Of a stretch of DNA of 25,301 bases, positions 1,285 to 25,265 are shown piece by piece. Source of the stretch: a virus. Under the pieces are notes generated by a model. That model was not told where the DNA came from. It ran no database searches and worked only from the letters and a program-made list of their open reading frames with translations. Each line of letters starts with the position of its first letter. Positions within the stretch are counted from its first letter, which is position 1. The stretch is from positions 1-25,301 of IMG/VR virus record IMGVR_UViG_3300038454_000007, one strand, 5' to 3'. A program made the position numbers and the translations under genes.

Positions 1285-1607
1285 TTACCGGACTTTGGCG
1301 AATCGTCCCCGATTCGTGTCGCCTTCTCTAGGCGTTGCTGCTCCAGCGCCGCTTCATGCTTATCGACCATGAGCCTTAGGATCTGAAGATCGGAGCGGAG
1401 CCCGATCACTTCGCTTGCACAGTGCTGTGCGGCGGTTCGCGCCAGATCGGCCCGCCCGCTCGATTCCTGTACGATCCCTTTGAGGTCGGCGACTAGGCCC
1501 TTGATCCCTTGTAGTTCTGCTAGCACTAGCTCGAGCGTCGAGCGCTCGCCGGGAAGCGAAACTGGCTCTAACTGAAGCGGCTTAGCGGCCGACTTACTAC
1601 GGCTCAT
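1281..1607 (-). CDS. Small coiled-coil protein, function unknown
   Basis: 108 residues, starting at an ATG that overlaps the end of the esterase gene by 4 bases and ending in a 4-base overlap with the membrane-protein gene. The region from about 24 to 97 is almost entirely helical with heptad-like spacing of Leu, Ile and Val (for example LELVLAELQGIKGLVADLKG), which predicts a coiled coil. There is no signal peptide or membrane segment. I do not recognise the family. Tight coupling to both neighbours suggests co-expression with the membrane protein; a partner role to it, or a small fibre-associated chaperone, are both only possibilities. Confidence 0.6.
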   Translation of the reverse strand: MSRSKSAAKPLQLEPVSLPGERSTLELVLAELQGIKGLVADLKGIVQESSGRADLARTAAQHCASEVIGLRSDLQILRLMVDKHEAALEQQRLEKATRIGDDSPKSGK

Positions 1608-3474: not shown

Positions 3475-4524
3475 TCACGCTGTTAGGACGATGGTGGATC
3501 GATTCCACGGCAGAATGAACCGATCGAACTGCATAAACTGCCGTACGTTACCGGTGCTCGGGTATCCGGAGCCGATCGAGATATTGTTACGCCCAACCCA
3601 CATGTCAGGAATGAATGCGTGATCGCCTACGAAGTTTGCGGTGTTGGACACGGCGCGGGTTCCCCACAGAGGATTATCGTTATCGGGATCGGCCGTTGTG
3701 ATCGCGGCTGTGCCGCCAGTATTACCGAAGCCCACGTGTCCGAGGCGCACATTGAAGTTCGACGCGCCGCTACGCCCCTGTAGGAACGTCGCACCGGTAG
3801 TGTCGGTCCAGTCTGCGGGCGCGGGTGTGCTCGACGCCGGGGCAGCCGTTGCGGTCCCTAGCGCCCCAATGAGAATTGGTGTGGTCCACCACGACTTGAC
3901 TTGCTGCGGCTTGACGAAAACCCAAGCTCCGCAGACGAAGTTGTTCCGCATGAACACGATCACGGTATAGGTTCCGTCTGAAGACAAAACTAGGTGCATA
4001 ACCGTATTGTTGCTCGCGTTCGAGGTCGCCCCCCACGTTGACCCGGCGTTTACCAGCGTAGTTGAATTGAGGGCTGTGGGGGCAGCTGTCGCCGTCCCAT
4101 CGGCGCCACCGTTAGCCGCACCAAAACCGGTCGGGCTAAAGACCATCGTCAGGTTATTGACCGTTGCACTATTGCAGTCGAGCAGTAGCGCCGCGTTAGA
4201 CGCCAGCCCGGTCTGCCGCAACACGATCCAGCTATGGTTGTTGCCGGCGGTGTTATGAACGATATCACCGATCGCCGACCATCGATCGACGCCGTCGCCG
4301 TTTCCGAAGGCACCCGCACCGTTATTCGAACCCCAAACGGTCCAGCCGCCAGTCGGCGAGGGCAGCGAGCTTCCGTCGCTGGCCGTGAAGCCAGACGTGG
4401 ACGCCTTCATTCCGTTTTTGACACCGAGCAGGAAGTTATCGGTTTGGGTCTCGAGCGTTCCGCTCAGAGCCAACGTCTGATTGACTAGAAACTGCTGTGT
4501 CAGGGTGAGACTAGGAAGTGCCAT
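3475..4524 (-). CDS. Tail fibre/appendage structural protein
   Basis: 349 residues with an ATG start 6 bases after the upstream gene. The protein is rich in Ser, Thr, Asn, Gly and Ala with short beta-strand-like stretches (for example HSWIVLRQTG, HLVLSSDGTYTVIVFM), low in charge, and lacks signal peptide or enzyme motifs. This composition is usual for beta-rich phage fibre or appendage proteins. Its place between the fibre-adaptor-like gene and the LamG-like gene supports a virion surface role. No specific family is recognised. Confidence 0.55.
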   Translation of the reverse strand: MALPSLTLTQQFLVNQTLALSGTLETQTDNFLLGVKNGMKASTSGFTASDGSSLPSPTGGWTVWGSNNGAGAFGNGDGVDRWSAIGDIVHNTAGNNHSWIVLRQTGLASNAALLLDCNSATVNNLTMVFSPTGFGAANGGADGTATAAPTALNSTTLVNAGSTWGATSNASNNTVMHLVLSSDGTYTVIVFMRNNFVCGAWVFVKPQQVKSWWTTPILIGALGTATAAPASSTPAPADWTDTTGATFLQGRSGASNFNVRLGHVGFGNTGGTAAITTADPDNDNPLWGTRAVSNTANFVGDHAFIPDMWVGRNNISIGSGYPSTGNVRQFMQFDRFILPWNRSTIVLTA

Positions 4525-4530
4525 CGATCC

Positions 4531-5172
4531 TCACGTTAGACTGATGATCATGCGCGCGCCGGTAACGAGCAGTCCGGTTTGCGAGTTGGCGCCACTCTCA
4601 CCAATGAAAGAGAGATAGTAGCTGTCGCTCGTCGTAAGTGTGTGATTGAGGCCGCTAACTGTGAGGGTTCGAAGTGCTTCGTACGCTACGACGTTGGCAG
4701 CGTTATCTTGAGCGTTCGAGCCCAGCTGAGTGAGCGCGCTCGCAGCCGAATAGCCCTGACGAAAAACCTGCAGGATCGGCTGGCTTGCCGGCAGCGCGCC
4801 GTGGCCGTTCGACGGACGGTATGAGATCGAAACGCTCTTGAGCTTGAGGGTTCCGTTTCCCATGCGGACCGGAAGCGGGAGCATAAAGCTCGCTGAGGTC
4901 GTCGACTGATTACACCCCGCCGCGTTCGCGCCCGGACCCTGTCCAAGCAAAAAGCTAAAGTTAGTCGCGACCAGCATGGTCAGCGGAACCGCGATATCGG
5001 CGTCAGGCTTCCAACCCTCAACCGCCAGATCGAGAGTGTCTTTGATGTATCGAGTGCGATTCGAGAGCGCCTGGAAGCCGACTTCGACTGACGCCGCAGT
5101 GCGTGCATCCCCCGGGTCAGGTACAGTAACACTGGAAGTATATGTGCTAACTTCAGTTAGAGTATGTGACAT
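4531..5172 (-). CDS. Tail fibre protein with phage adaptor-like N-terminus
   Basis: 213 residues, ATG in a TAATG overlap with the HNH gene stop. The first 45 residues (VTVPDPGDARTAASVEVGFQ, then ALSNRTRYIKD) match a segment common at the N-terminus of phage fibre and appendage proteins, where a short strand is followed by a helix that precedes trimeric shaft or head domains. The remainder is beta-rich with no enzyme motif. It lies downstream of the baseplate module, interrupted from it by the HNH gene. The assignment as a fibre component is inference from this N-terminal segment and position. Confidence 0.6.
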   Translation of the reverse strand: MSHTLTEVSTYTSSVTVPDPGDARTAASVEVGFQALSNRTRYIKDTLDLAVEGWKPDADIAVPLTMLVATNFSFLLGQGPGANAAGCNQSTTSASFMLPLPVRMGNGTLKLKSVSISYRPSNGHGALPASQPILQVFRQGYSAASALTQLGSNAQDNAANVVAYEALRTLTVSGLNHTLTTSDSYYLSFIGESGANSQTGLLVTGARMIISLT

Positions 5173-5732
5173 TAGCTGATCTCACGATGCGCTTCGATGT
5201 AATCGGCTGCGGTTCGCATAAGCTCCGGATCGTCTTTAAAAGCACCGAGAGCCCCATTGCAAAGCCCGCACAAGAGCTTTCTACGGCGTCCAGTGTCGTG
5301 GTCGTGATCTGCTACCAGCTGGCCAGAGGCGCCCTTAACGAACGATTTCTGATCTCCCGACACACCGCACAGGAAACACTTACCGTTTTGCTGTCGAAAG
5401 GCTTTCAGGTAGTCTGAGCTTGTCCAGCCTGTAGTATCGAATCTATGGCGCACCGTGCGCCGGCAGTTCGAACATAGGATATCGTCACTGTAATCAGCGC
5501 GCGCGCTGAACTGACCTTGCGTACCGCGCATGCAAAATTCAGAACCGCATAGCTCACAATCCAAATAGAGCGGTATTTTCAGAGATGGGCCACCCTCGCC
5601 ACGAATGAATCTATAGTGCTGTTTAAAGCAAGTGCGAGAGCAAAACTTCCGCTGATTGCCAAACGGTGGCTCGATCGTCGCCCTGCACCATGCGCAGATG
5701 CGATATCTTGTTTTGGTCGCCACATGTATCAC
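5172..5732 (-). CDS. Endonuclease VII-family HNH endonuclease with extra zinc fingers
   Basis: 186 residues, GTG start with AGGAG about 10 bases upstream. The C-terminal domain carries the recombination-endonuclease-VII signature: NGKCFLCG (C119, C122), VADHDHDTG (141-148), LLCGLCNGALG (C155, C158, N159) and DDPELMRTAADYIE. The N-terminal part adds two more cysteine pairs sets, CAWC with FCSRTC (C13, C16, C31, C35) and CELC with CSNC (C59, C62, C87, C90), likely zinc sites for DNA recognition. Members nick or cut DNA, either as junction resolvases or free-standing homing endonucleases. It interrupts baseplate and fibre genes, and a copy of the TCAGTTCCTTAG repeat lies 13 bases before its start. 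Mobile-endonuclease behaviour is plausible but not shown. Confidence 0.82.
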   Translation of the reverse strand: MIHVATKTRYRICAWCRATIEPPFGNQRKFCSRTCFKQHYRFIRGEGGPSLKIPLYLDCELCGSEFCMRGTQGQFSARADYSDDILCSNCRRTVRHRFDTTGWTSSDYLKAFRQQNGKCFLCGVSGDQKSFVKGASGQLVADHDHDTGRRRKLLCGLCNGALGAFKDDPELMRTAADYIEAHREIS

Positions 5733-5741
5733 GGTGTCAAG

Positions 5742-5757
5742 GCTCCTAAGGAACTGA
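5742..5757 (-). promoter_or_regulatory. Repeat element copy D, TCAGTTCCTTAGNAGC
   Basis: Exact 12-base core TCAGTTCCTTAG (5746-5757, minus strand) plus the AGC extension. It lies in the 33-base gap between the baseplate gp48-like gene and the HNH gene, 13 bases before the HNH GTG start. The extension merges with the AGGAG ribosome-binding site of the HNH gene. Non-coding, so sequence conservation here cannot be explained by protein constraint. Confidence 0.75.
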
Positions 5758-8179: not shown

Positions 8180-8812
8180 TCAGCGCTCACACCAATGCAT
8201 GGTGTAACTGTAGAGCCAAGTTTGGGTCGCGGCCATGGCGACGATCGTGCGAAGTGCGATCCCGTCACCAGCATTAAGCACGATCGGTGTTGAGGGCTCG
8301 AAGATCCACTCAAACCACATAGCGCCGGAACTGATAAACAGCGGTATCACGGTCGTTCCGATCACAGTACCGAACGTCGGCGCGGTGCCCGTGAGGGCCG
8401 CGTTGCTGTCGCGAACGTCGGTCATATCGGTCGCGCTGCCGAGCGCTTCATACTGTCGATTGACGGTGCGAGCCGTTCCACCGGTCGGGGTTTGCGCCGT
8501 AAAGCGCTGCAGGCCGATCGTGCCGGGAACCCCAGCCGCGGCTCCGAGCGTCGACGCTGCGACAATAAGCCGATACCGAGAGACGTATGCTTTGCGCGTC
8601 GAGCTCGGATTGAACCGGGCGCTCATCAGCATGGTGTTCGCGGCGAGAGCGGCCGCGACTACAGCGCTCGTCTGTCCTGTCACGGTATAGTGGCCGCCAG
8701 CGGACGGAACAACGATCGGCCCCGGAGTAGTAGGAACGTTCCCATTAGCGTCGACTAACAGGACTTGCGAAGGTGCGTTAGGGTTCTGTAATACGGCCAC
8801 TGAATCACCCAC
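8180..8812 (-). CDS. Beta-rich structural protein, unknown, within baseplate module
   Basis: 210 residues. The frame opens with a GTG at 8812 that overlaps the collagen-like gene stop; a second GTG at 8800 (residue 5) is also possible. Apart from an Ala-rich strand region ([20 protein letters not shown]) the protein is beta-rich, with [18 protein letters not shown] and a C-terminal [10 protein letters not shown]. There is no enzyme motif, signal peptide or membrane segment. The style resembles phage surface/appendage proteins. It sits with the collagen-like gene between spike and wedge genes, so a virion decoration or baseplate appendage is likely. Confidence 0.55.
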
Positions 8813-9422
8813 TTACTTGATACGCAAACTTGAAGTTACCAACAACGGGCCCAGACGATTGCCAGAAGCACTCGATCTGAGTCGTCGAGATCGTCTTAGC
8901 GCTGACCTGGATCTGATCCATCTCAGCTTCATCTGCGAGATCCCCTTTGCCGGTATAGGGCCCGTTCGCTTGAACGATCTGGACATGCTTTCCGGCTGTG
9001 AGGCCCGTCGTGGTGATCACGAACCTCCCCGAGGTCGCTGCGACGGAGCCAAGATCCTTCTCGACCTCAATCAGAGTCAGGGATCCGGCAGGCCCAGCGG
9101 GCCCTTGTGGGCCGGTAGCTCCGTCAGCACCGTCGGCGCCGTCTACGCCATCGACGCCGTCGGCACCCGGCGGTCCTTGTGGTCCAGCTGGGCCTTGCGG
9201 TCCGGTCGCGCCTGTTGCGCCCGTGGCGCCAGTAGCACCGGCGGCGCCCGCCGGGCCCTGAGGCCCTTGAGCCCCCTGGGCTCCGGCAGGCCCTTGCGGT
9301 CCAGTCGGCCCTTGCGGCCCAGGAGGCCCCCCGGCAGGCCCTGTCGCGCCCGCGGGACCAGGCGGGCCGGGGACTCCCTCGAATCGAATGATGATTGGAC
9401 GTGTAGCGGCCGCGCGTGCCAT
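8805..9422 (-). CDS. Collagen-like (Gly-X-Y) virion appendage protein
   Basis: 205 residues from the ATG at 9422 (TGATG overlap; a GTG one codon upstream is possible). Residues about 16-112 are Gly-X-Y repeats rich in GPQ, GPA, GAT and GAD/GVD triplets, predicted to form a trimeric collagen-like stalk. The register breaks once near the start, at [10 protein letters not shown], where one extra glycine intrudes. The C-terminal ~90 residues (from about [13 protein letters not shown]) form a compact beta-rich head ([38 protein letters not shown]) that could nucleate the trimer. Collagen-like stalks are well known in phage fibres. Its location among baseplate genes points to a baseplate-attached fibre. 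Confidence 0.82.
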
Positions 9423-9940
9423 CACGTCACCCCAAAGAAGGTATTAAGGGCCGCCGTCGCCGAAGGCGTCGCAGCCGCCAAAAAGACCCCTGACACCTGT
9501 TGCGACGGCACCACACCCGGAAGCCCTCCCGCGAGTCCGGTCGCAAAAGCGGCGCTCAGAGAGGCCGAATCACCAGAGTAGGTGTAGACATGGATCCCCG
9601 CTGTACCGAGGTTCATGTCGAATGCCGCTGCGACCGACAGCTGCGCGAACTGGACTTGAAGCTCAGCTAGTAGCGACGCTAGCAGCGCGACCTGGACGTC
9701 GATCACCGGAGGTGCCAACTCGAGCGACGCGACAATATCTAAGGCGATCTGAAGGTTCGTCGCGATCGACGGAGGAGTAATCGAGAGTCGTACCTGGGCC
9801 TCTAGCACGCCTGCGATCTTGGCCTGGATATCCGGCAGCGAGACGTTAACGGCGATCCCCAGTTGCGCCTCAGCCGCGAGCGCAAGCGGCATCGCTCCGC
9901 CGAGCGTCATACTGCCCTGATATGCGAGATCGCCAGCCAT
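9422..9940 (-). CDS. Hydrophobic Ala-rich protein, unknown, after the spike gene
   Basis: 172 residues from the ATG at 9940, which overlaps the hub-spike stop (TGATG); the longer open frame upstream is a shadow of the hub gene. The sequence is Ala/Leu-rich with periodic helix-like repeats (for example [38 protein letters not shown]), very low charge, then a [20 protein letters not shown] segment and a hydrophobic C-terminus. No clean membrane segment with flanking charges is evident. Family not recognised. It is coupled to both the hub-spike and collagen-like genes, so a baseplate or appendage-attachment role is plausible. Confidence 0.55.
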
Positions 9941-14858: not shown

Positions 14859-16325
14859 TCACACTGCTACGACTTGCAGCGCGGGATTGCGGAACCCGAG
14901 GTCGAGATTGATCACCTTCGGGTATGCGAGCGGAACGATCGCGCCCTGAACAGTGAGGGTTTTGGTCGAGAGCAGATTGTCGGTACGCGATAGCGAGACG
15001 AAGCGGCCCTTCGCGAAGCCGCCGCCCGAGGCCTTGGGCGTGGCCATCAGGACCGCGCGTACCGCGGCATCGGCGCCTTTCTCGATCTCGAGGGCTTCGC
15101 TCTCGAGGATAAAGCCCGTCGCAGTCGCGACTCGGATCGGCTTCGAAAGTCGCCGCGTGAAGTAGAGCCGGAGCGCCTTGCGCGCGAGGTTCATAACGCG
15201 GCGATGCTGAAAGAACTCGAAGTCGGAACCGGCAGCCGACAGGATCCTGGGGTTATTGCAGAACACACCCTGGATATCCGACCACGTGCGCAGCACCGCC
15301 GCGCGCGAATCGTCCAGGCCGGGGTTGACGTTCTCATCGTGTTCAACCGGGTTACCGTTCGCGTCGCGGATATCGACGCCAGGAAGCGCCGGATCGTTCG
15401 GGCTTGAGATATCGACTTCTTCCGAGACGAATGCCTGGCGCGCGCCGATCGAGAACAGCGCCGGACGACGATACTGCCGGAACGTGATCGCCGAGGTCGT
15501 GCGCGCAGCACCGGCGCAGATCATCGGATAGTTGTTGGCCTTCGCGCTGAATGCAGTATCGAAGGCCGTTCGGTAAGTCGATTCGCTCTCGCCCACGTTC
15601 GGCATACGGAAGTGCGCCATCCAGGCTTTCTCGAGCATAATCCCCGATCCGAAGTTCGTGACGATCGTGTCGAAAGCCGAAGCGTCGATGTTGCCGACGA
15701 TCATCGCGATCTCCCACGAGATCGCCGAATTAGCTAGCGCCGTCAGGGCCGTTCCGAGCTCGGTCGTATTCCAGTTCGGCGCCTTGGCAACCGAGAACGC
15801 CGTATCACCGGCAACGAGGGTACCGGCCGCAAAGCTGTAGCCGATCCCACCCGAGCCAGGGAAAACGAAACTAGTCGCAGTCCCGAGCGCTGTGATCGGG
15901 CTCAGAGTCCGGCCGTTATCGAGCGACCACTGAAAGAGGATCCCCGCCACGCCGATCGTTCCACCGGTCGTGACTTTGAAGTACGGCTCGTAGTCATCGT
16001 TCGGATTCGTGTCGCCGCCGGAGATCGTCACTACAGACGTTCCGGTAACGCCTGCGACATTGAGATCGCCATGCGTCCCGACTGTCGAGTTACCGGTTCG
16101 AACGAATACGACCGGTCGGCCGTAGTTCTTGATGAAGTAACAAGCAGCTTCGACCGTGTTTGACTGCCCGAAGGTCGCAATCACGTCTTTCGTGCGCGCG
16201 TACGCGGCCGGAGTCGCTACCGGGCCTGACTCCGCCGGACCTACGACAGCAAGCGCCGAAACCCCTGCCGGAAGCGTCCCTAACGCGCCATCGAGCTCCG
16301 TGATATTGACTACCTGTAGTGACAT
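14859..16325 (-). CDS. Contractile tail sheath protein
   Basis: 488 residues, ATG preceded by AAAGGG. The N-terminal region (LPAGVSALAVVGPAESGPVA, then YARTKDVIATFGQSNTVEAA and YGRPVVFVRT) is the usual start of phage sheath proteins. The C-terminal part includes NNPRILSAAGSDFEFFQHRR, then VMNLARKALRLYFTRRLS, matching the conserved sheath C-terminal domain (cave/N-C handshake region). The sheath contracts to drive the tube through the cell envelope. Length is in the 450-500 range for Mu-type sheaths. Confidence 0.93.
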   Translation of the reverse strand: MSLQVVNITELDGALGTLPAGVSALAVVGPAESGPVATPAAYARTKDVIATFGQSNTVEAACYFIKNYGRPVVFVRTGNSTVGTHGDLNVAGVTGTSVVTISGGDTNPNDDYEPYFKVTTGGTIGVAGILFQWSLDNGRTLSPITALGTATSFVFPGSGGIGYSFAAGTLVAGDTAFSVAKAPNWNTTELGTALTALANSAISWEIAMIVGNIDASAFDTIVTNFGSGIMLEKAWMAHFRMPNVGESESTYRTAFDTAFSAKANNYPMICAGAARTTSAITFRQYRRPALFSIGARQAFVSEEVDISSPNDPALPGVDIRDANGNPVEHDENVNPGLDDSRAAVLRTWSDIQGVFCNNPRILSAAGSDFEFFQHRRVMNLARKALRLYFTRRLSKPIRVATATGFILESEALEIEKGADAAVRAVLMATPKASGGGFAKGRFVSLSRTDNLLSTKTLTVQGAIVPLAYPKVINLDLGFRNPALQVVAV

Positions 16326-16337
16326 GCGATCGGCCCT

Positions 16338-16913
16338 TTACGGTGCGGGAACGATGATCACCACGTCGGACGTGGGATTCGGGGGGTCCCCGTTAGAGTC
16401 CAGTTTTGGTGTGATGTGCGCTGCGGTGTCGATCGGAGCCGAAGTTTGCTCGGTGTCCGGGATCATCGCTTCTAAGGAACTGACAACGATTAGCGTCGCC
16501 CCATACCGGCGCTCGTTGTGATCAACAGCCCAACGAACTTCGCGGATCGTCATAGTGCCGTACGCGGCGAGGTAAACGGCACGCCGCCAGACGTCGTATA
16601 GCAGCCGAGTCGCTTTCCACTGCGCGCGCTCGCTCTCTTTTAGGTTGGGTGTCAGATCCGCGCCGGTAATGTAGACCGTGAAAAGCTCGCGCAGCGTCGC
16701 AAGCGGGCGCGGGTTACGACCTGGATACTTGGGAGGCGCGTCTTCGCCGGCCGAGCCGGTCGGATCCCCAGGCACCCAACAGATCCTTGACGTAGGGCCG
16801 TGGCGCGGCGGCTCGCGCCAACCGAACGTATTGGGAACAGCGACGCCTTCGGCCGTGAAGCGCGCGACGACGTCGTCAAAGAGCTTTTCGAGCGCTAGCG
16901 TGTCAGCCACCGA
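16338..16913 (-). CDS. Probable tail terminator/completion protein (Mu gp37 position)
   Basis: 191 residues from the GTG at 16913, chosen because AGGAG lies 7 bases upstream; a TTG 15 bases earlier would give 196. Mixed alpha/beta: an N-terminal helix (VADTLALEKLFDDVVARFTA), strands (SRICWVPGD, RELFTVYITGADL), a helix (ESERAQWKATRLLYDVWRRA), then RYGATLIVVSSLEAMIPD and a Pro/Asp-rich tail. Position between the gpG-like gene and the sheath is that of Mu gp37, the tail terminator that stops tube growth and joins tail to head. One copy of the 12-base repeat lies inside this gene and encodes SSLEA. Confidence 0.55.
   Translation of the reverse strand, partial: SVADTLALEKLFDDVVARFTAEGVAVPNTFGWREPPRHGPTSRICWVPGDPTGSAGEDAPPKYPGRNPRPLATLRELFTVYITGADLTPNLKESERAQWKATRLLYDVWRRAVYLAAYGTMTIREVRWAVDHNERRYGATLIVVSSLEAMIPDTEQTSAPIDTAAHITPKLDSNGDPPNPTSDVVIIVPAP
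16468..16483 (-). promoter_or_regulatory. Repeat element copy C, TCAGTTCCTTAGNAGC
   Basis: Exact 12-base core (16472-16483, minus strand) with the AGC extension, inside the coding sequence of the probable tail terminator and 146 bases before the sheath start. It is read as SSLEA. An ATG follows five bases after the core but would give only a 42-residue peptide, so the nearest meaningful downstream start is the sheath gene. Confidence 0.65.
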
Positions 16914-19330: not shown

Positions 19331-20011
19331 TCAGCCTTTGGCCGGCACGCTGGCCGGAGGGGCGTAGGGCTTGAAGGTCTTCACGCCGAAGGTTTGAACG
19401 GCGCCCGAGTCGATCACCGCATCGGAGACGCTCGCGAGGCCCATCAGGCGATCGAGGTCGACGTTCGGCGACATGGCGACCGGTTGCCCGGCACCAATCG
19501 CGGCGCTTGCGGCGGCGCTTGACTCGGCCGCAGCCGGATTCACGAAGGCTTTCGGGATCGCGGCGATGATCGCCGTTGCTTGCGCCAGAGGCGTCGAAGC
19601 GAGCGAAGCCTTCAGGGCCTCAGAGAGATCCGGGCGCGAAGCAAAGAGCGCGGCGCGCGCAGCGGCATCGGCCGCTTTGGCGTCAGCGTCGGCTTTGGCC
19701 TGAAGCGCGGCGATCTTGGCATTCGCGGCCGCGAGATCAGCGGCAAGAGCGGCGACGGTCGCCAGAGGCGCAGAAGCAGACGCGGCGCGCGCGTCTTCCT
19801 TCTTGTCGTCTTTCTTCTCGTCGTCGCTTTCGGCCTTGCGCGCGTCCTTCTTGTCGTCTTCCGATTCGGCCTTGGACTTCTCTTCGTCCTTGTCCTCGTC
19901 GTAAGCGGCCAAGGCGCGCTTGGCTCGAGCAGCCTTTTCCTTGTCTTCCGAATTCGCGGCGTTCACCAGCGAGGCTCGGATGGCGTCTTTATCGTCGCTC
20001 TTGTCGGCCAT
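19331..20011 (-). CDS. Capsid scaffold protein from internal in-frame start
   Basis: 226 residues in the same frame as the protease, beginning at an in-frame ATG (MADKSDDKD) located just where the protease domain ends. The protein is highly charged (two near-repeats, KAESEDDKKDAR and KAESDDEKKDDKK), then Ala-rich and coiled-coil (LATVAALAADLAAANAKIAA), ending in PKAFVNPAAAES and a Gly/Pro tail: the composition of phage scaffolds. A TCAGTTCCTTAG repeat lies 14 bases before this ATG, without a strong Shine-Dalgarno. In Mu (I/Z) and lambda (C/Nu3) the scaffold is likewise made from an internal start. Separate expression here is inference. Confidence 0.6.
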   Translation of the reverse strand: MADKSDDKDAIRASLVNAANSEDKEKAARAKRALAAYDEDKDEEKSKAESEDDKKDARKAESDDEKKDDKKEDARAASASAPLATVAALAADLAAANAKIAALQAKADADAKAADAAARAALFASRPDLSEALKASLASTPLAQATAIIAAIPKAFVNPAAAESSAAASAAIGAGQPVAMSPNVDLDRLMGLASVSDAVIDSGAVQTFGVKTFKPYAPPASVPAKG

Positions 20012-20788
20012 GGTATCACCGGCTGCTAAGGAACTGAACGCGCCGGTGTCTACAGCCCCCAGAAACTCTTCCCACGACATGATCGCGTCGCAGAGGCCGA
20101 CCGACCTCGCACGCTCGCCAACGTAACAGGATGCCTGAAGGGGTTCGGGATCGAAGCTCCGGTGATCCTTGATCAGCTGAAAGAAGACGGCGGCAGTGTC
20201 GTCAACGGTGCGCTGGATCGCTTCTAGCGCGTCGTCTGAGAACGGAACGTGAAGGTTACCGTCGGCTTTCCGCGCGCCGCTCTTGACCATGTGGAAGGCA
20301 ACGCCCATCGCAGCGTCAGCCTTCGAAGCATCGATCACGGCGTGGATCACACCAATCGAGCCGAGCCCGGCTGAACTTGACGCAACGATCTTCGATGCAG
20401 CTGAGATCAGGGCGTAAGCGCTAGAGTGTACGCCCGAGTCGGTGTAGCCGAGCAGCGTCTTGCCGGCCTTCGCCGCCATCGCGCGGAGTGCTCGCGCGCA
20501 ATCGAACGCGCCTGCGACCTCGCCGCCGGGCGACGAGACCTTAAGGATCACGTACTGAGCGGGAGACGCGAGCGCAGCGGCGACACGGCCCTTGATCGCA
20601 GAGTAGGAATCAAAGAGCCCGCCGGAGTAGGTCAGCGGGCCACAGATATCGACGACAGCTGCTTTCTCGTTCGCGACCAAACAGAACGGTTCGCCAAAAG
20701 CTCGAAGGATCACATACTCGAGCCCGAACGCGCTCGGCTCGATCCCCAGCAGGCCGGGTTGTTGGAACTTACTCTTTTCCTGCGCCAT
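19331..20788 (-). CDS. S49-family head maturation protease fused to scaffold
   Basis: 485 residues from the ATG at 20788, overlapping the portal gene by 20 bases; the longer open frame upstream is a shadow of the portal. Residues 40-250 carry an S49 (SppA-like) fold: YVILKVSSPGGEVAGAFDCA, then GYTDSGVHSSAYALISAASK (nucleophile Ser122 or Ser123) and GLGSIGVIHAVID, followed by MVKSGARKADGNLHVPFSDD. Phage S49 proteases mature the head by cleaving scaffold and capsid. From residue 260 the protein becomes the charged and Ala-rich scaffold domain, so the protease and scaffold share one frame, as in Mu gpI and lambda C. Similar length to those proteins. Confidence 0.85.
   Translation of the reverse strand: MAQEKSKFQQPGLLGIEPSAFGLEYVILRAFGEPFCLVANEKAAVVDICGPLTYSGGLFDSYSAIKGRVAAALASPAQYVILKVSSPGGEVAGAFDCARALRAMAAKAGKTLLGYTDSGVHSSAYALISAASKIVASSSAGLGSIGVIHAVIDASKADAAMGVAFHMVKSGARKADGNLHVPFSDDALEAIQRTVDDTAAVFFQLIKDHRSFDPEPLQASCYVGERARSVGLCDAIMSWEEFLGAVDTGAFSSLAAGDTMADKSDDKDAIRASLVNAANSEDKEKAARAKRALAAYDEDKDEEKSKAESEDDKKDARKAESDDEKKDDKKEDARAASASAPLATVAALAADLAAANAKIAALQAKADADAKAADAAARAALFASRPDLSEALKASLASTPLAQATAIIAAIPKAFVNPAAAESSAAASAAIGAGQPVAMSPNVDLDRLMGLASVSDAVIDSGAVQTFGVKTFKPYAPPASVPAKG
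20022..20037 (-). promoter_or_regulatory. Repeat element copy B, TCAGTTCCTTAGNAGC
   Basis: Exact 12-base core (20026-20037, minus strand) with the AGC extension, 14 bases before the internal scaffold ATG at 20011. It is read in the protease frame as SSLAA. It sits in the linker between the protease and scaffold domains, which places it at a translation start rather than in conserved protein. Confidence 0.72.
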
Positions 20789-22127
20789 TCTCGTCGTCTT
20801 TCTCTTCCCCGTCTTTCGCTTCGAGCAGTGCCGGATCCGGTGTCGCACCTTCGACCATCGGGGCCCCGAACCGATTCGCGAGCTCGGCCACGTCAAGCAC
20901 GAGCCCAGCTCGAGCTAATTGCTCTTGCAGCGGCGCGAGCGCCGTCGCGAGCGCACCGAGCGCTTCACCTTCGGCCTTGCGGTCCGACGGGCGGCTAATG
21001 TCCCAAGCGACTCGCACACATTCTTCAAGCGAGTCGGCACCGAAGTTCGCAAACATCCAGGCCGGTAGCCCCTGGGTGTTCATGGTTAGCGCCAGGCCGT
21101 CGGCCGTCTCTTGAATCAGATCCGCCCGGATCGTCTCGTGGATATCGGCATTCGCGAATCCAGTTCCACCCGTGGTGGTAACAACTTGGCCCGCGAGCTG
21201 GATCATCGCCTCATGATCGGCCGTCTCGATCTCTTCGGCGAAGACTTCCCAGCCGCGACCGTTCGACTCGAGCAGCTTCGCGTCCCATCCAGGCGGTAGT
21301 TCGAAGACAGAGTTCAGCCCCCACGAGATCAGCCTAGACAGAAACCCAGCTCGCTGTGCTTCGGTGCCGCCTTGCGGTGCGTACGCGACTCGAGCGGGGT
21401 TTGCGAGCTTGCCGCTGAAGTTCGCCCGATGCAGAAGCGCATGCTCCTTCAGGATGAAAGCGCGTCCGACTGCTTCTACGCACCCGCTCTGCCACGGGCA
21501 CATACGCGCGCCTGGGACGTGCAGTATCCAACGCCCGTCGCCGGGAGTGATCGGCAGCTGGCCGGCGACAGACGTGTAGTACCAACGCCCCTCACTCCAG
21601 CGATACTGAAGGAACTCCGGCGACAGTGTGACCATCATCGGATGCTCGCGGCCCTTGACCGGCACGAGCTCCGCGACCCCAACACCACACCCAATCCCAT
21701 CAGCAGCTAGCCGAGCAAGCTCGGGTGACGGAAACATCTCGTCGAAGATCGAACGCGATCGGTTCGTGTCCTTTAGTACCTTGATCGCTTCTTCGCGGCC
21801 GCGGAAGATCTTCGGTAGCGCGACCAGCCCCGAAGTTCTGGTTTTGGTCAGTCCTGAGATTACCCCATCGCGTCGAGTCGAGCGCCAAAGCTGACCGAGC
21901 ATTCTCAGATCGCCCTGATCGGCGAGGCGCTGAGCGTTCTCGAGATCGGCTAGCAGCCATCGCGTTCGAGTTTGGGGAACCGGCTGTAGCGCCCCGCCCA
22001 TCGAAGCCCGAATCCGCTCGACTAGCTGATCGTCGAGCTCGACATGATAAGGAAGCTGATCCGGCTGAAGCGCGGGGATCCCCACTAACGCAAGCGCAGC
22101 GTTACGGAAACGATCGGATAGTTTCAT
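20769..22127 (-). CDS. Portal protein, Mu gp29 / DUF935-like
   Basis: 452 residues, ATG start. Features of the family: RTRWLLADLENAQRLADQGD near 53-72, LGQLWRSTRRDGVISGLTKT with R/G-rich turns (83-102), FDEMFPSPELARLAADGIGC with GVGVAELVPVKGREHPMMVT following, PCHW-like LHVPGARMCPWQSGCVEAVG, then SGKLANPARVAYAPQG, and a NADIHETIRADLIQETADGL stretch. The portal is the dodecameric ring through which DNA enters. It directly follows the terminase gene and precedes the protease, without the MuF-type gene that usually sits between in Mu. A repeat element lies 24 bases before the ATG. Confidence 0.88.
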   Translation of the reverse strand: MKLSDRFRNAALALVGIPALQPDQLPYHVELDDQLVERIRASMGGALQPVPQTRTRWLLADLENAQRLADQGDLRMLGQLWRSTRRDGVISGLTKTRTSGLVALPKIFRGREEAIKVLKDTNRSRSIFDEMFPSPELARLAADGIGCGVGVAELVPVKGREHPMMVTLSPEFLQYRWSEGRWYYTSVAGQLPITPGDGRWILHVPGARMCPWQSGCVEAVGRAFILKEHALLHRANFSGKLANPARVAYAPQGGTEAQRAGFLSRLISWGLNSVFELPPGWDAKLLESNGRGWEVFAEEIETADHEAMIQLAGQVVTTTGGTGFANADIHETIRADLIQETADGLALTMNTQGLPAWMFANFGADSLEECVRVAWDISRPSDRKAEGEALGALATALAPLQEQLARAGLVLDVAELANRFGAPMVEGATPDPALLEAKDGEEKDDENGAGKE

Positions 22128-22151: not shown

Positions 22152-22163
22152 CTAAGGAACTGA
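22152..22163 (-). promoter_or_regulatory. Repeat element copy A, TCAGTTCCTTAG
   Basis: Exact 12-base core on the minus strand in the 47-base gap between the large terminase stop and the portal ATG, 24 bases before the ATG. The following bases are AGTC rather than NAGC, so this copy shares only the core (and the preceding G seen in copy C). It is non-coding. Confidence 0.72.
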
Positions 22164-22174
22164 CGCGGCGGCGA

Positions 22175-23836
22175 TCACCTGAAAAGGTCCGCCCCGCCGT
22201 AGGGATCCAGCTCGACCTGATCGACGGCGTCGAACTGGGATCCGGTCGCCTGGACATGGGCTGAGGCAGGATCATTCGCCTCGATACGGAGCGAGATCGG
22301 CTCCCAGCAACTAACCGCGAAGGCGTCGCCCAGATCCGTCGAGCGCCCAAGCATCTTCCGGAGATCTTTCTTCTTCGTGAGCTCGAGTCGGCCACGTAGG
22401 TTCGACTTGAACTCGGGTGCGTGAAGATCTTTCTCGAGCTTGGTGTTTTCGGGAATCGCGCCGCCCGATCGCATCCACTCCCGCGCGCATGCGTAGATCT
22501 CGTCTCGGACCAGCTGATAGATCCCCGGCTGGCGAACTGCGCGCTCCGAGGTTCGGACGCGGACTACTTCAAACTCGCTCGTTCGTTCGGCGTGATCGCG
22601 AATCGCGCAATAGACCTTCCAGCCGACTTCACCTTCAGACTCGATCAGTACCGCCGGCAGAATCGGTCGGAACTTGCGATCGGGCTGATGAGTCGCGATC
22701 AGATCCTGGATAATCTCTATGTGCTGATTCGGCGAGATTCCCGAACGGGCTCGGAGCTCGAGTAACTTCTGTCCGCGCCGTGCAGCAAATCCCGACTCGT
22801 CGCCGCCGTCGCCATCGCCGGCCGGATCGCAACCGATCCACAGCCGCCCCGACGCGGCCGTATCAGGCCAGCGCTTCTCGGCTTCGAGGATCAGAGCGAG
22901 CTGAAACACTTTCGCTTCTTCGGCGACTACGAACAGACCCGCAACGCGGACCTTGAACAGGGCTCCGTCTTCGCCCCACTCCGCTGCCTTCTCTTCCACC
23001 CAGCCCAGCGTCGCGAGGCCGGGGATCGGCTTAGTGCGCGGGGTCCAGGCTTCCTTTCTCCAATCCCACTCTTTCAGGGTCTTCCACTCGCCGGTAATGT
23101 TCGGGCTCTCGCGCGAGTCGATGTGCAGCGTCAGATAGCCGGCCGTGCCTAGGATCTCGCGCGACTTGGTATGGTGCGCGTCGAAGAACTCGCCTTCAGC
23201 GCGCGTAGGGTTCGAGATCAAAAAGACCCAAGCGTTGCCGCCGGCCCGGTTACCTTCGATTGCCTGAAAGATATGGTCTTCGACGCCCGAGGCCTCGTCG
23301 ACGAGATACAGGATGTAGTCGCCCGAAACGCCGGCGATCGCTTCGGCCTCTTTGGCGGTGTAGCCACGGATCTCCGAGTCGGTGATAGGATGCGTCAGTC
23401 CGGTCCGGGCCTTGATGCCCATGTCCGGCGTGCCGGGAATCTCGAAACCTGCGCGGCGCGCGCGCTTAATGAGCCGCTTGATCTCACGCCAGATGATCCC
23501 GTTGACTTGATTGTCAGTAGTCGCAGTGATCACCACGCGCGCATTCGGGAATGAGCAGTAGAACCAGAGCGCTAGGATCGCTAGCGCGGTCGACTTCCCG
23601 ACCTTGTGCCCCGAAACCGTCGCAACGCGCATGCAACGCGCGACACCTTCGAGTATGTCTCGCTGGCGCTTCCACGGGAGAAGCTTGCAAATCTCTTTCG
23701 CGAAGCCGACCGGGTCGGGCGGATCGGCGAACTTGGTCAGTAGATCGTTGATCGACTTCGGCGGCTGGATCTGGTTCAGGAGCCGGAAGGCGCGCCGCGA
23801 AAAGTTCTGGCCTAGCTGGTCCTCGTTACGCGGCAT
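22175..23836 (-). CDS. terL: Terminase large subunit
   Basis: 553 residues, ATG, overlapping the sigma gene by 11 bases. ATPase motifs: adenine-binding KRQRD (56-60), Walker A SGHKVGKST (75-83), Walker B YILYLVDEAS (D180-E181), coupling FLISNPT (205-211). Nuclease motifs: IGCDPAGDGDGGDESG (D337 and D346) and STDLGDAFAV (D501, D504). TerL cuts concatemeric DNA and pumps it into the head through the portal. The portal gene follows after 47 bases. A dedicated small subunit is not obvious; the helical protein at the start of the operon is a candidate. All catalytic residues appear intact. Confidence 0.95.
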   Translation of the reverse strand: MPRNEDQLGQNFSRRAFRLLNQIQPPKSINDLLTKFADPPDPVGFAKEICKLLPWKRQRDILEGVARCMRVATVSGHKVGKSTALAILALWFYCSFPNARVVITATTDNQVNGIIWREIKRLIKRARRAGFEIPGTPDMGIKARTGLTHPITDSEIRGYTAKEAEAIAGVSGDYILYLVDEASGVEDHIFQAIEGNRAGGNAWVFLISNPTRAEGEFFDAHHTKSREILGTAGYLTLHIDSRESPNITGEWKTLKEWDWRKEAWTPRTKPIPGLATLGWVEEKAAEWGEDGALFKVRVAGLFVVAEEAKVFQLALILEAEKRWPDTAASGRLWIGCDPAGDGDGGDESGFAARRGQKLLELRARSGISPNQHIEIIQDLIATHQPDRKFRPILPAVLIESEGEVGWKVYCAIRDHAERTSEFEVVRVRTSERAVRQPGIYQLVRDEIYACAREWMRSGGAIPENTKLEKDLHAPEFKSNLRGRLELTKKKDLRKMLGRSTDLGDAFAVSCWEPISLRIEANDPASAHVQATGSQFDAVDQVELDPYGGADLFR

Positions 23837-24758
23837 TCGGATCGCCGTCCGGGCCGTTCGGGCCTAGGGAGCCGCGCAGCTTCCGCAGTGCGACCGAATG
23901 GATCACCGAAACCCTCTGAAACGAGACCCCGGCGCGTTCCGCGATCTCCCGCTGTGTCGGCTCCGAATAGCTGAAACTCTCTTGTAGCACCTGTCGTTCG
24001 CGCGCTGTCAACTTCCAGCGCTCGCCGCGGAAGCGACGAACCGCCGCGGCTGTGTCGATCTTCGAGATCAGCTCGTCTTCGTAGTCTTGCGCTAGCGCGT
24101 AGCACTCTGCCTGCTTGTGCGTCGACACCGCGCGCGGGGGCTCCTCACCGGATCGCGCCGAGCTCGAGAAGGTCGGCTCGCCGGAGCGATCGGTCGCGAT
24201 CTGGCCCAGAGCGTCAACCTGTCTGAGCCCCGGCTCGTGTAGTGCCTGCTCGACGAAGTCGCCGCTCTGAGGCTGGCCGGCGAAGGTTCCGTACGCTTCT
24301 CGAATCTCTTCCGTGTCGGGGTCGCGCCCGAGCTCCGACTGTAGCTTCTCGGCGATCTTCTTCACACGCTTCTGGCGCCGAACGTGCAACCGACTGCAGC
24401 GGTAGACCTCTAGCGCAACCATGCTGGCGACTGCGCCGCGCATCCAACGAAAGGCGAACGCAGAAAACTCTTCCCCCGACACGTCGAGCCGCGTTGTCGC
24501 GATCGCATGGATCAAGCCGCTCTCGATCTTCGCTCCGCCGAACAGCCCGGCCATAACCGCGTCTTCGATTAGGTCGCGCCGTCGAACGGCAAGGCAAGCC
24601 TCCCGCGCGAACTGGACGCATGCCGGCCGGTAGTAGAGGATCAGCCTATTACGCGCAGTGACGTCACCGACGCGCGCCGCGCGTAACAGCGTCACGATCT
24701 CGTGCCCCGCGAGAGCGTAGGTTCTGGTCTGGGCCTTTCGATCTTTCCTGCAGCTCAT
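23826..24758 (-). CDS. Phage RNA polymerase sigma-70-family factor
   Basis: 310 residues; ATGA overlap with the upstream gene. Region 2 spans about 35-120: a helix RNRLILYYRPACVQFAREAC, the linker DLIEDAVMAGLFGG, then the characteristic FSAFAFRWMRGAVASMV (98-114; compare F.TYA..WIR.AI). Region 3 is at about 120-158 (RLHVRRQKRVKKIAEKLQ and ELGRDPDTEEI). Region 4 is at 248-296: LTARERQVLQESFSYSEPTQ then REIAERAGVSFQRVSVIHSV and ALRKLR, the -35-binding helix-turn-helix. A Ser/Pro linker joins 3 and 4. Such factors redirect host polymerase to phage promoters. Its place in the packaging operon, where a small terminase is expected, is unusual; a divergent DNA-binding packaging role cannot be excluded. 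Confidence 0.85.
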   Translation of the reverse strand: MSCRKDRKAQTRTYALAGHEIVTLLRAARVGDVTARNRLILYYRPACVQFAREACLAVRRRDLIEDAVMAGLFGGAKIESGLIHAIATTRLDVSGEEFSAFAFRWMRGAVASMVALEVYRCSRLHVRRQKRVKKIAEKLQSELGRDPDTEEIREAYGTFAGQPQSGDFVEQALHEPGLRQVDALGQIATDRSGEPTFSSSARSGEEPPRAVSTHKQAECYALAQDYEDELISKIDTAAAVRRFRGERWKLTARERQVLQESFSYSEPTQREIAERAGVSFQRVSVIHSVALRKLRGSLGPNGPDGDPNAA

Positions 24759-25201
24759 CCGTCCGCCTTCAGAACGGCTGTCGCTTCTGCCACGGCGCGC
24801 AATGCGTCAGGATAGGGGGCCAGCGCCCCCAATACCCTGTCGCAAACATGTGCCCAGTTCGGGCTGGCTAGAATCGCCCGGGTTGAGAGCGTGAGCCCGA
24901 CTCCAGCCGTTTTCCCGAGTCGAGCCGTGATCATAGAGAGGTCGCGAAGAAGCTTCACGCGCGTCTCTATGTCCAGTAGCACTGGATTATTCTCCGAGTC
25001 GATTAGCATCTTCTCGAGCGCTTTCGCCTGGTCGAGCAGGCGCATAGCGATCTGCTTCGCACTCTCGGCGATCTCGCCCATCTCTTTTTTTTCGGCTTCT
25101 TCCGGGGAAGTCGACTCGAGCTTCGGTGCGACGAAGCGCGCCGGCTCTCGAGACGGCCGGTCGTCTTCGGGGTCTAGAGCCCCCGTCATCCAGTCGTTCA
25201 T
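24755..25201 (-). CDS. Small helical protein, candidate small terminase subunit
   Basis: 148 residues from the ATG at 25201 (MNDWMTGALDPED). A GTG at 25231 would add 10 residues, but it sits in the loop of a strong hairpin, so I prefer the ATG. Residues about 35-100 are a long charged helix region (EEAEKKEMGEIAESAKQIAM, LLDQAKALEKMLIDSENNPV), suitable for oligomerisation, followed by a second helical part (VCDRVLGALAPYPDALRAVA). No clear helix-turn-helix. Being the first gene before sigma and TerL, and coupled to sigma by ATGA, it may be the small terminase, but this is from position only. Confidence 0.5.
   Translation of the reverse strand: MNDWMTGALDPEDDRPSREPARFVAPKLESTSPEEAEKKEMGEIAESAKQIAMRLLDQAKALEKMLIDSENNPVLLDIETRVKLLRDLSMITARLGKTAGVGLTLSTRAILASPNWAHVCDRVLGALAPYPDALRAVAEATAVLKADG
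24815..24830. repeat. GC hairpin GGGGGC-CAGC-GCCCCC
   Basis: A 6-base perfect inverted repeat with a 4-base loop, inside the 3' end of the helical-protein gene and about 57 bases before the sigma start codon. The same stem (GGGGGC/GCCCCC, 4-base loop) occurs at 25222-25237. There is no T-run after it on the minus strand, so it does not look like an intrinsic terminator. Confidence 0.6.
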
Positions 25202-25221
25202 GCCGTAGCCTGACACATTCC

Positions 25222-25237
25222 GGGGGCGCACGCCCCC
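25222..25237. repeat. GC hairpin GGGGGC-GCAC-GCCCCC
   Basis: A perfect 6-base stem with a 4-base loop, ending 21 bases before the ATG at 25201, in the leader of the operon. It has the same stem as the hairpin at 24815-24830. In the mRNA it would sit close to the ribosome-binding region and could affect initiation. No T-run follows. Confidence 0.6.
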
Positions 25238-25244
25238 ATTGCGA

Positions 25245-25265
25245 CATTACACATATGGTGTAATG
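25245..25265. promoter_or_regulatory. Operator-like inverted repeat upstream of the terminase operon
   Basis: Perfect 8-base arms CATTACAC and GTGTAATG separated by 5 bases (ATATG). The spacing and arm length are typical of a site for a dimeric repressor or activator. It lies about 45 bases before the first start codon, in the only stretch here that could hold a promoter for the operon. No clear -10/-35 pair is visible. The 36 bases to its right (to the window edge) hold another partial inverted repeat (GGGG, TTTCTAG, CCCC) and no gene. Confidence 0.55.

Follow-up and report, generated by a model that had tools for sequence, protein, structure and literature searches.

Gene order at the terminase end of the window

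The analyzed window comprised 25,301 bases of the uncultured virus record IMGVR_UViG_3300038454_000007, which originates from a virus of bacteria. Its minus strand encodes a TerS-like protein, a sigma factor, the large terminase, a Mu-type portal protein, a protease with scaffold, the major head protein, the tail sheath, the tape measure protein, and more genes. Its features include the following:

25245–25265, no strand: perfect 21-bp palindrome CATTACACATATGGTGTAATG upstream of the TerS candidate, occurring once
24755–25231, minus strand: candidate small terminase TerS (158 aa), assigned by homology and position upstream of terL
23826–24758, minus strand: sigma-70-type factor of 310 aa with regions 2, 3, and 4, assigned by Pfam, PHROG 351, and PDB sequence and fold matches
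22175–23836, minus strand: large terminase TerL (PHROG 2, terminase large subunit, 1.1e-35)
20769–22127, minus strand: portal protein of the Mu type (PF06074 Portal_Mu, 1.6e-38), downstream of box 1
19331–20896, minus strand: head maturation protease with a C-terminal scaffold (PHROG 53, 3.7e-53)
14859–16325, minus strand: tail sheath (PHROG 907, tail sheath, 1.3e-17), downstream of box 3

The gene order was terS-sigma-terL. The TerS candidate overlaps the start of the sigma gene by 4 bp, and the end of the sigma gene overlaps terL by 11 bp (23826–23836), as an earlier sequence-only reading of this DNA had stated for the large terminase. Inside the protease gene, an internal scaffold start is located at 20011, and its start MADKSDD is kept in relatives. 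The contigs of many relatives start no more than about 280 bases upstream of terS; therefore, a genome terminus is probably not far from the right end of the window. The gene at 8805–9425 encodes a collagen-like tail protein that is rich in Gly-X-Y repeats. In annotated phage records, the best matches of the portal protein were 25–30% identical and came from Meiothermus, Thermus, and Myxococcus phages, a resemblance that may give a weak hint at the host.

The sequence-only reading had placed the sigma gene in the slot of the small terminase. This placement was not upheld: a conserved candidate TerS of a helix-turn-helix family is encoded directly upstream of the sigma gene instead. The candidate was 33% identical to the protein encoded at 277–828 of the relative L002 and was homologous to 23 other proteins encoded upstream of terL. 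The family was present at that place in phages with and without the sigma gene, and a separate candidate was found in every sigma phage. The sigma gene as the sole candidate TerS upstream of terL was thus ruled out by this conserved gene family. A Foldseek search with the TerS candidate of the window gave no TerS match; its position and conservation suggest that it is a candidate TerS.

Other members of the family begin with a helix-turn-helix, and the window candidate lacks most of this N-terminal part, which is present in 24 relatives. The place where the missing part would be encoded is occupied by the perfect palindrome and a GC-rich hairpin (GGGGGCG-CA-CGCCCCC, 25222–25237). The palindrome is exact; when up to three mismatches were allowed, 3 of 100 shuffles reached as many matches. 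It was rejected as a repeated late element because of its single occurrence, and it is a possible operator of the first late messenger.

The sigma-70-type factor and its relatives

A profile search bore out the proposal that a sigma factor is encoded in the packaging operon. The profiles Sigma70_r4 (PF04545, 5.9e-12) and Sigma70_r3 (7.5e-6) both matched the window protein above the cut-off, whereas Sigma70_r2 (0.055) was below it. Thus, of the three regions described as visible in the sequence-only reading, regions 3 and 4 stood, and region 2 was weak. In relatives, region 2 exceeded the cut-off in L002 (2.1e-8) and also in L152, L154, and L155, and it could be aligned in all nine sigma carriers. 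The segment EEFSAFAFRWMRGAV and the helix-turn-helix of region 4, both pointed out earlier, are present. PHROG_351, “RNA polymerase sigma factor,” matched the protein at 1.2e-10, and nearly all of its PDB sequence matches were sigma factors, the best being FliA (2.3e-6). A sigma fold was also found by structure prediction: the AlphaFold2 model (pLDDT 78) was matched by Foldseek to sigma-S (5ipl_F, 1.3e-7) in an alignment spanning the whole length, with low TM-scores (about 0.3) owing to a low-confidence linker between the domains. The product of 23826–24758 is a real sigma-70-type factor, which would be expected to bind RNA polymerase.

Assignment to the ECF factors (group 4), which have regions 2 and 4 without region 3, was ruled out by the region 3 match above the cut-off (7.5e-6). 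The absence of region 4, a trait of the phiEco32 gp36 or T4 gp55 type, was not found in the window protein either; as it keeps region 4, it would by analogy work like a single-element late sigma factor rather than being one. In known sigma factors, region 2.2 is where the core polymerase binds. The window protein has an insertion in this region, which is common to six of the nine carriers, is absent in L025, L154, and L155, and is absent from ordinary sigma factors.

Used as a direct query, the window sigma factor had no relative in viral contigs, the genomes of 84,980 species, or phage records, and a TerL alignment run against genome contigs found none. About 100 relatives were gathered through TerL and the portal protein. 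A sigma gene in the slot between terS and terL was present in nine distinct records (the window, L002, L034, L037, L038, L025, L152, L154, and L155), which are uncultured contractile-tailed phages; most other relatives had no sigma gene there. The sigma factors of the carriers were 20–29% identical to that of the window, and TerL identity was 46–61% (window, L002, L034, L037, L038, and L025). The sigma factors of L025 and L154 end before region 4, and that of L037 is devoid of the helix-turn-helix. On the TerL tree, which was obtained by a quick method, the nine carriers formed one clade (SH-aLRT 95); thus, one gain of the sigma gene appears to be the simplest history.

Small region-4-like proteins without region 2 are encoded between terS and terL in L157 (704–1186), L164 (2189–2782), and L086 (1242–1790), and no repeated box was seen in L157, which has the region-4-like protein only. 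The TerL of L003 (1246–3819) is 857 aa long, with an insert in the Walker A motif (GHKIGK...HNSTVL) that by eye resembles an intein. No report of a sigma gene between terS and terL was found in the open-access papers searched.

Repeated boxes before the late genes

The presence of a repeated DNA element in the downstream late genes, as noted earlier, was confirmed. The 12-mer TCAGTTCCTTAG occurred in four exact copies, all on the coding strand of the late genes and none on the other, with 0.0006 copies expected under a Markov-3 model. The sites were as follows:

22152–22163, minus strand: box 1, exact copy of TCAGTTCCTTAG, putative late promoter upstream of the portal gene (ATG at 22127)
20026–20037, minus strand: box 2, exact copy within the protease gene; the internal scaffold ATG follows after 14 nt
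16472–16483, minus strand: box 3, exact copy within the gene preceding the sheath gene; the sheath start lies 158 nt downstream
5746–5757, minus strand: box 4, exact copy upstream of an endonuclease VII-like gene and the next tail gene
1375–1386, minus strand: weak variant TCAGATCCTAAG with two mismatches, a possible fifth site that could be due to chance

Loose matches to the box (a 9-mer with two mismatches or a 12-mer with three) did not exceed the chance level; therefore, only the exact copies and the one copy with two mismatches were named as sites. There was no box before the window's own terS or sigma gene. A site equivalent to box 1 was found in seven other sigma phages. The endonuclease VII-like gene (5172–5732; PF02945, 2.1e-17) is located between box 4 and the tail gene at 4531–5172. 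Since a box directly precedes the ortholog of this tail gene in L037, L038, L025, and L154, the nuclease gene looks as if it had been inserted behind a putative promoter.

Among the nine sigma phages, seven have a comparable single box of about 12 bp in front of the corresponding genes, with six different sequences in all. The box is AGGCGCTAGAC in L002, GGCGCTA[GC]CCTA in L037 (resembling that of L002), [TC]CGGTGGTATAC in L038, TCGCACTCCAGT in L025 and its close relative L154, and GGGGCTATACTA in L155. One copy in L002 lies 14 nt before the ATG of its own sigma gene, as would be expected for self-activation.

The first test took, for each genome, the longest word common to the stretches upstream of the portal and of the scaffold, with pairs of stretches from different genomes as the comparison. 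The top three of 77 loci were sigma carriers, and after enlargement to 98 loci the top five were all among the nine carriers (hypergeometric, 1.9e-6). The carriers L152, L154, and L155 had been recognized by their sigma genes before any box was sought; the box was found as predicted in L154 and L155, and weakly in L152, which failed this test.

In the second test, a 12-mer common to six orthologous upstream regions was sought in each genome, and its score was compared with those of 15 shuffles. The score and the shuffle maximum were 12.0/6.6 for the window, 8.2/6.2 for L002, 12.0/8.6 for L037, 16.2/6.2 for L038, 22.0/8.2 for L025, 20.0/6.2 for L154, and 16.0/4.8 for L155; L152 (7.0/7.6) and L034 (2.2/4.0) did not pass. 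The 11 sigma-less genomes scored 4.4–7.8, with shuffle maxima of 5.2–9.2; G018 (5.6/5.2) and G024 (7.8/7.0) exceeded their own maxima of 15 shuffles by a narrow margin and were counted as negative. The margin of L002 was also small, yet its word is an exact 21-nt repeat. In total, seven of nine sigma phages were clearly above the shuffles versus none of the 11 sigma-less genomes (Fisher, 5e-4). Because the carriers form one clade, these statistics measure association and not independent gains.

No 12-mer was found in L152. The 9-nt word GCGGAATAG lies at two expected sites there, with a one-mismatch count no higher than chance, and may be regarded as a weak, suggestive candidate. The candidate CGGGGCCACTA at 4464, 5231, and 9474 of L034, a 10-kb fragment, was not convincing. 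These two tests took the place of a near-match statistic on the portal and scaffold words, which was too coarse and picked up low-complexity words in genomes without a sigma gene. For L002, a loose weight matrix was discarded because it had drifted to 54 coding sites.

A putative late-gene switch and comparison with known systems

The window, L038, L155, and L152 have a box at the same codon of the gene preceding the sheath gene although the box sequences differ, and the site follows a conserved Gly-Ala-Thr by a few codons. The sequences are GTC AGT TCC TTA GAA in the window, GTC GGT GGT ATA CAG in L038, GTT GGG GCT ATA CTA in L155, and GTC TGC GGA ATA GAA in L152. The first three boxes were defined by copies elsewhere in the respective genome, and the sole other copy in L152 is before the portal gene. 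A TA dinucleotide is common to all four sites and may mark the -10 core; near-canonical -10 hexamers are contained in the boxes of L155 (GGGGC-TATACT) and L038 (TGG-TATACT). No column was conserved over the 45 nt preceding the boxes in the window (four sites), L002, L037, or L025, and one was conserved each in L038 and L155, which is near the false-positive rate of the test. Since no conserved -35 columns were seen, the boxes would fit single-element promoters without a -35 element, in agreement with the loss of region 4 in L025, L154, and L037. The box starts 16–20 nt before the portal start codon in seven carriers; if transcription began 6–8 bp past the box, by analogy with phiEco32, the portal messengers would be leaderless or nearly so.

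Taken together, we consider it likely that the protein is a late sigma factor with private single-element promoters, and that its specificity and these promoters diverged together. A messenger starting upstream of terS, with the palindrome at 25245–25265 as its candidate operator, would yield TerS, sigma, and TerL. The sigma factor would then join the host core RNA polymerase, read the box itself, and direct the polymerase to the single boxes (TCAGTTCCTTAG in the window) before the portal, scaffold, sheath, and tail block. The box would act as a -10 element without a -35, and starts a few bases downstream would leave very short leaders or none at several genes. The internal box would increase the production of scaffold over that of the protease, and the L002 sigma factor would also drive its own gene. 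A late-gene switch made of the sigma factor and the repeats had been suggested in the sequence-only reading, and the idea appears well supported by the comparison, as the boxes lie before late genes, are strand-specific, and are comparable in the sigma relatives and not in the sigma-less ones. The chances are about even that one inherited late sigma factor repeatedly changed its specificity, with the late promoters of each phage following in step at fixed positions, and that the loss of region 4 in some members left single-box promoters, several of which would give nearly leaderless late messengers.

Several observations stand against the late-sigma reading: the weak region 2 of the window protein together with its region 2.2 insertion, the retention in this protein of region 4 although its boxes appear to do without one, the absence of a box before the window's own terS and sigma genes, the weak box of L152, the unconvincing one of L034, and the scores of G018 and G024 marginally above their shuffles. 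In addition, because the carriers form one TerL clade, a single gain underlies the association of sigma gene and boxes, which some other feature of these phages could explain. Such dependence on one clade would suit boxes that are sites of another clade-specific phage regulator, an activator or a repressor, with the sigma factor driving other promoters, and the TerS candidate and other helix-turn-helix proteins could bind DNA. We regard this as rather unlikely, however, because the boxes are in one orientation, are not palindromic, and stand a short distance before the starts, some contain near-canonical -10 hexamers (L155 and L038), and the preceding 45 nt showed no second conserved element that would indicate a separate promoter.

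The probability that the boxes act in the messenger, as a translation-start or RNA-processing signal, is small. Many boxes are indeed followed by a start codon within 2–25 nt, and all are on the coding strand. However, there are only four to six sites per genome, at the heads of gene blocks, and those before the sheath and tape measure genes are 72–158 nt from the start codon. The box sequences are also wholly unlike between relatives, with no resemblance to ribosome-binding sites, and a messenger signal gives no reason for the boxes to track the presence of the sigma gene. Least probable of all is a sigma-derived packaging protein, moonlighting or partly replacing the terminase, that has lost polymerase binding: it would accord with the position and overlaps between terS and terL, the weak region 2 of the window copy, the loss of region 4 in some relatives, and the region-4-only proteins in the same slot of L157, L164, and L086, but every sigma phage has a separate TerS candidate, most relatives have no sigma gene in the slot, region 2 and not region 4 is kept by all nine carriers, and the boxes go with the sigma gene. 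On balance, no result spoke for the packaging or moonlighting role raised in the sequence-only reading.

A phage late sigma factor as such is of an already known kind; what appears to be new here is the place and the lineage in which one with putative private promoters occurs, together with the six unlike forms that the box takes. If the late-sigma reading is right, this phage lineage allows a late sigma factor to be compared directly with its promoters at equivalent positions, in six or more unlike versions, and a joint change of specificity in a sigma factor and all its promoters becomes directly testable. The clade would form a natural series of matched pairs, providing candidates for mutually independent sigma-promoter pairs, and the late promoters of uncultured phages could be found from sequence once the sigma gene is seen.

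Among known systems, SPO1 gp28 and gp33/gp34 are sigma factors by which a phage switches between gene classes; the promoters of SPO1 consist of two elements, and its sigma genes are located elsewhere. In contrast, no second element was seen here. Small late regulators of the ArpU/Xpf type are encoded beside the terminase genes, upstream of terS, and act at a late promoter. RinA and Ltr of staphylococcal phages are small late activators encoded upstream of or next to terS (PMC13123087). As in both of these groups, a putative late regulator gene adjoins the terminase genes in the sigma phages; unlike those regulators, which act at a late promoter, it encodes a larger sigma factor, follows terS, and is accompanied by several boxes across the late genes.

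T4 gp55 is a reduced sigma factor for late genes that needs gp33 and the sliding clamp gp45 and serves about 50 sites, and T4 late promoters are without a -35 element (PMC2988020). The same lack was seen for the boxes described here; however, they number four to six per genome against about 50, and the window sigma factor keeps region 4.

The late sigma factor gp36 of phiEco32 has no region 4 and reads a single element (tAATGTAtA), with starts 6–8 bp downstream; its distant relative, the late sigma factor gp47 of phage 7-11, recognizes a bipartite element, with promoters at similar positions in the genome (PMC8948821). The 7-11 promoters predicted from sequence in 2015 (PMC4331800) differed from those mapped later (PMC8948821), which by analogy may serve as a warning for the present boxes too. 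Both phages are podoviruses with the sigma gene outside the packaging genes, and the 7-11 promoters are bipartite, whereas here the sigma gene is located between terS and terL, the phages are contractile-tailed and have a portal of the Mu type, and a single clade contains six unlike boxes. They nevertheless resemble this clade in that the promoters of relatives are unlike yet at similar genome positions, and in the use of a phage sigma factor that reads late promoters with the host core polymerase, as it would here. By this analogy, phiEco32 gp36 appears to be the nearest working model.
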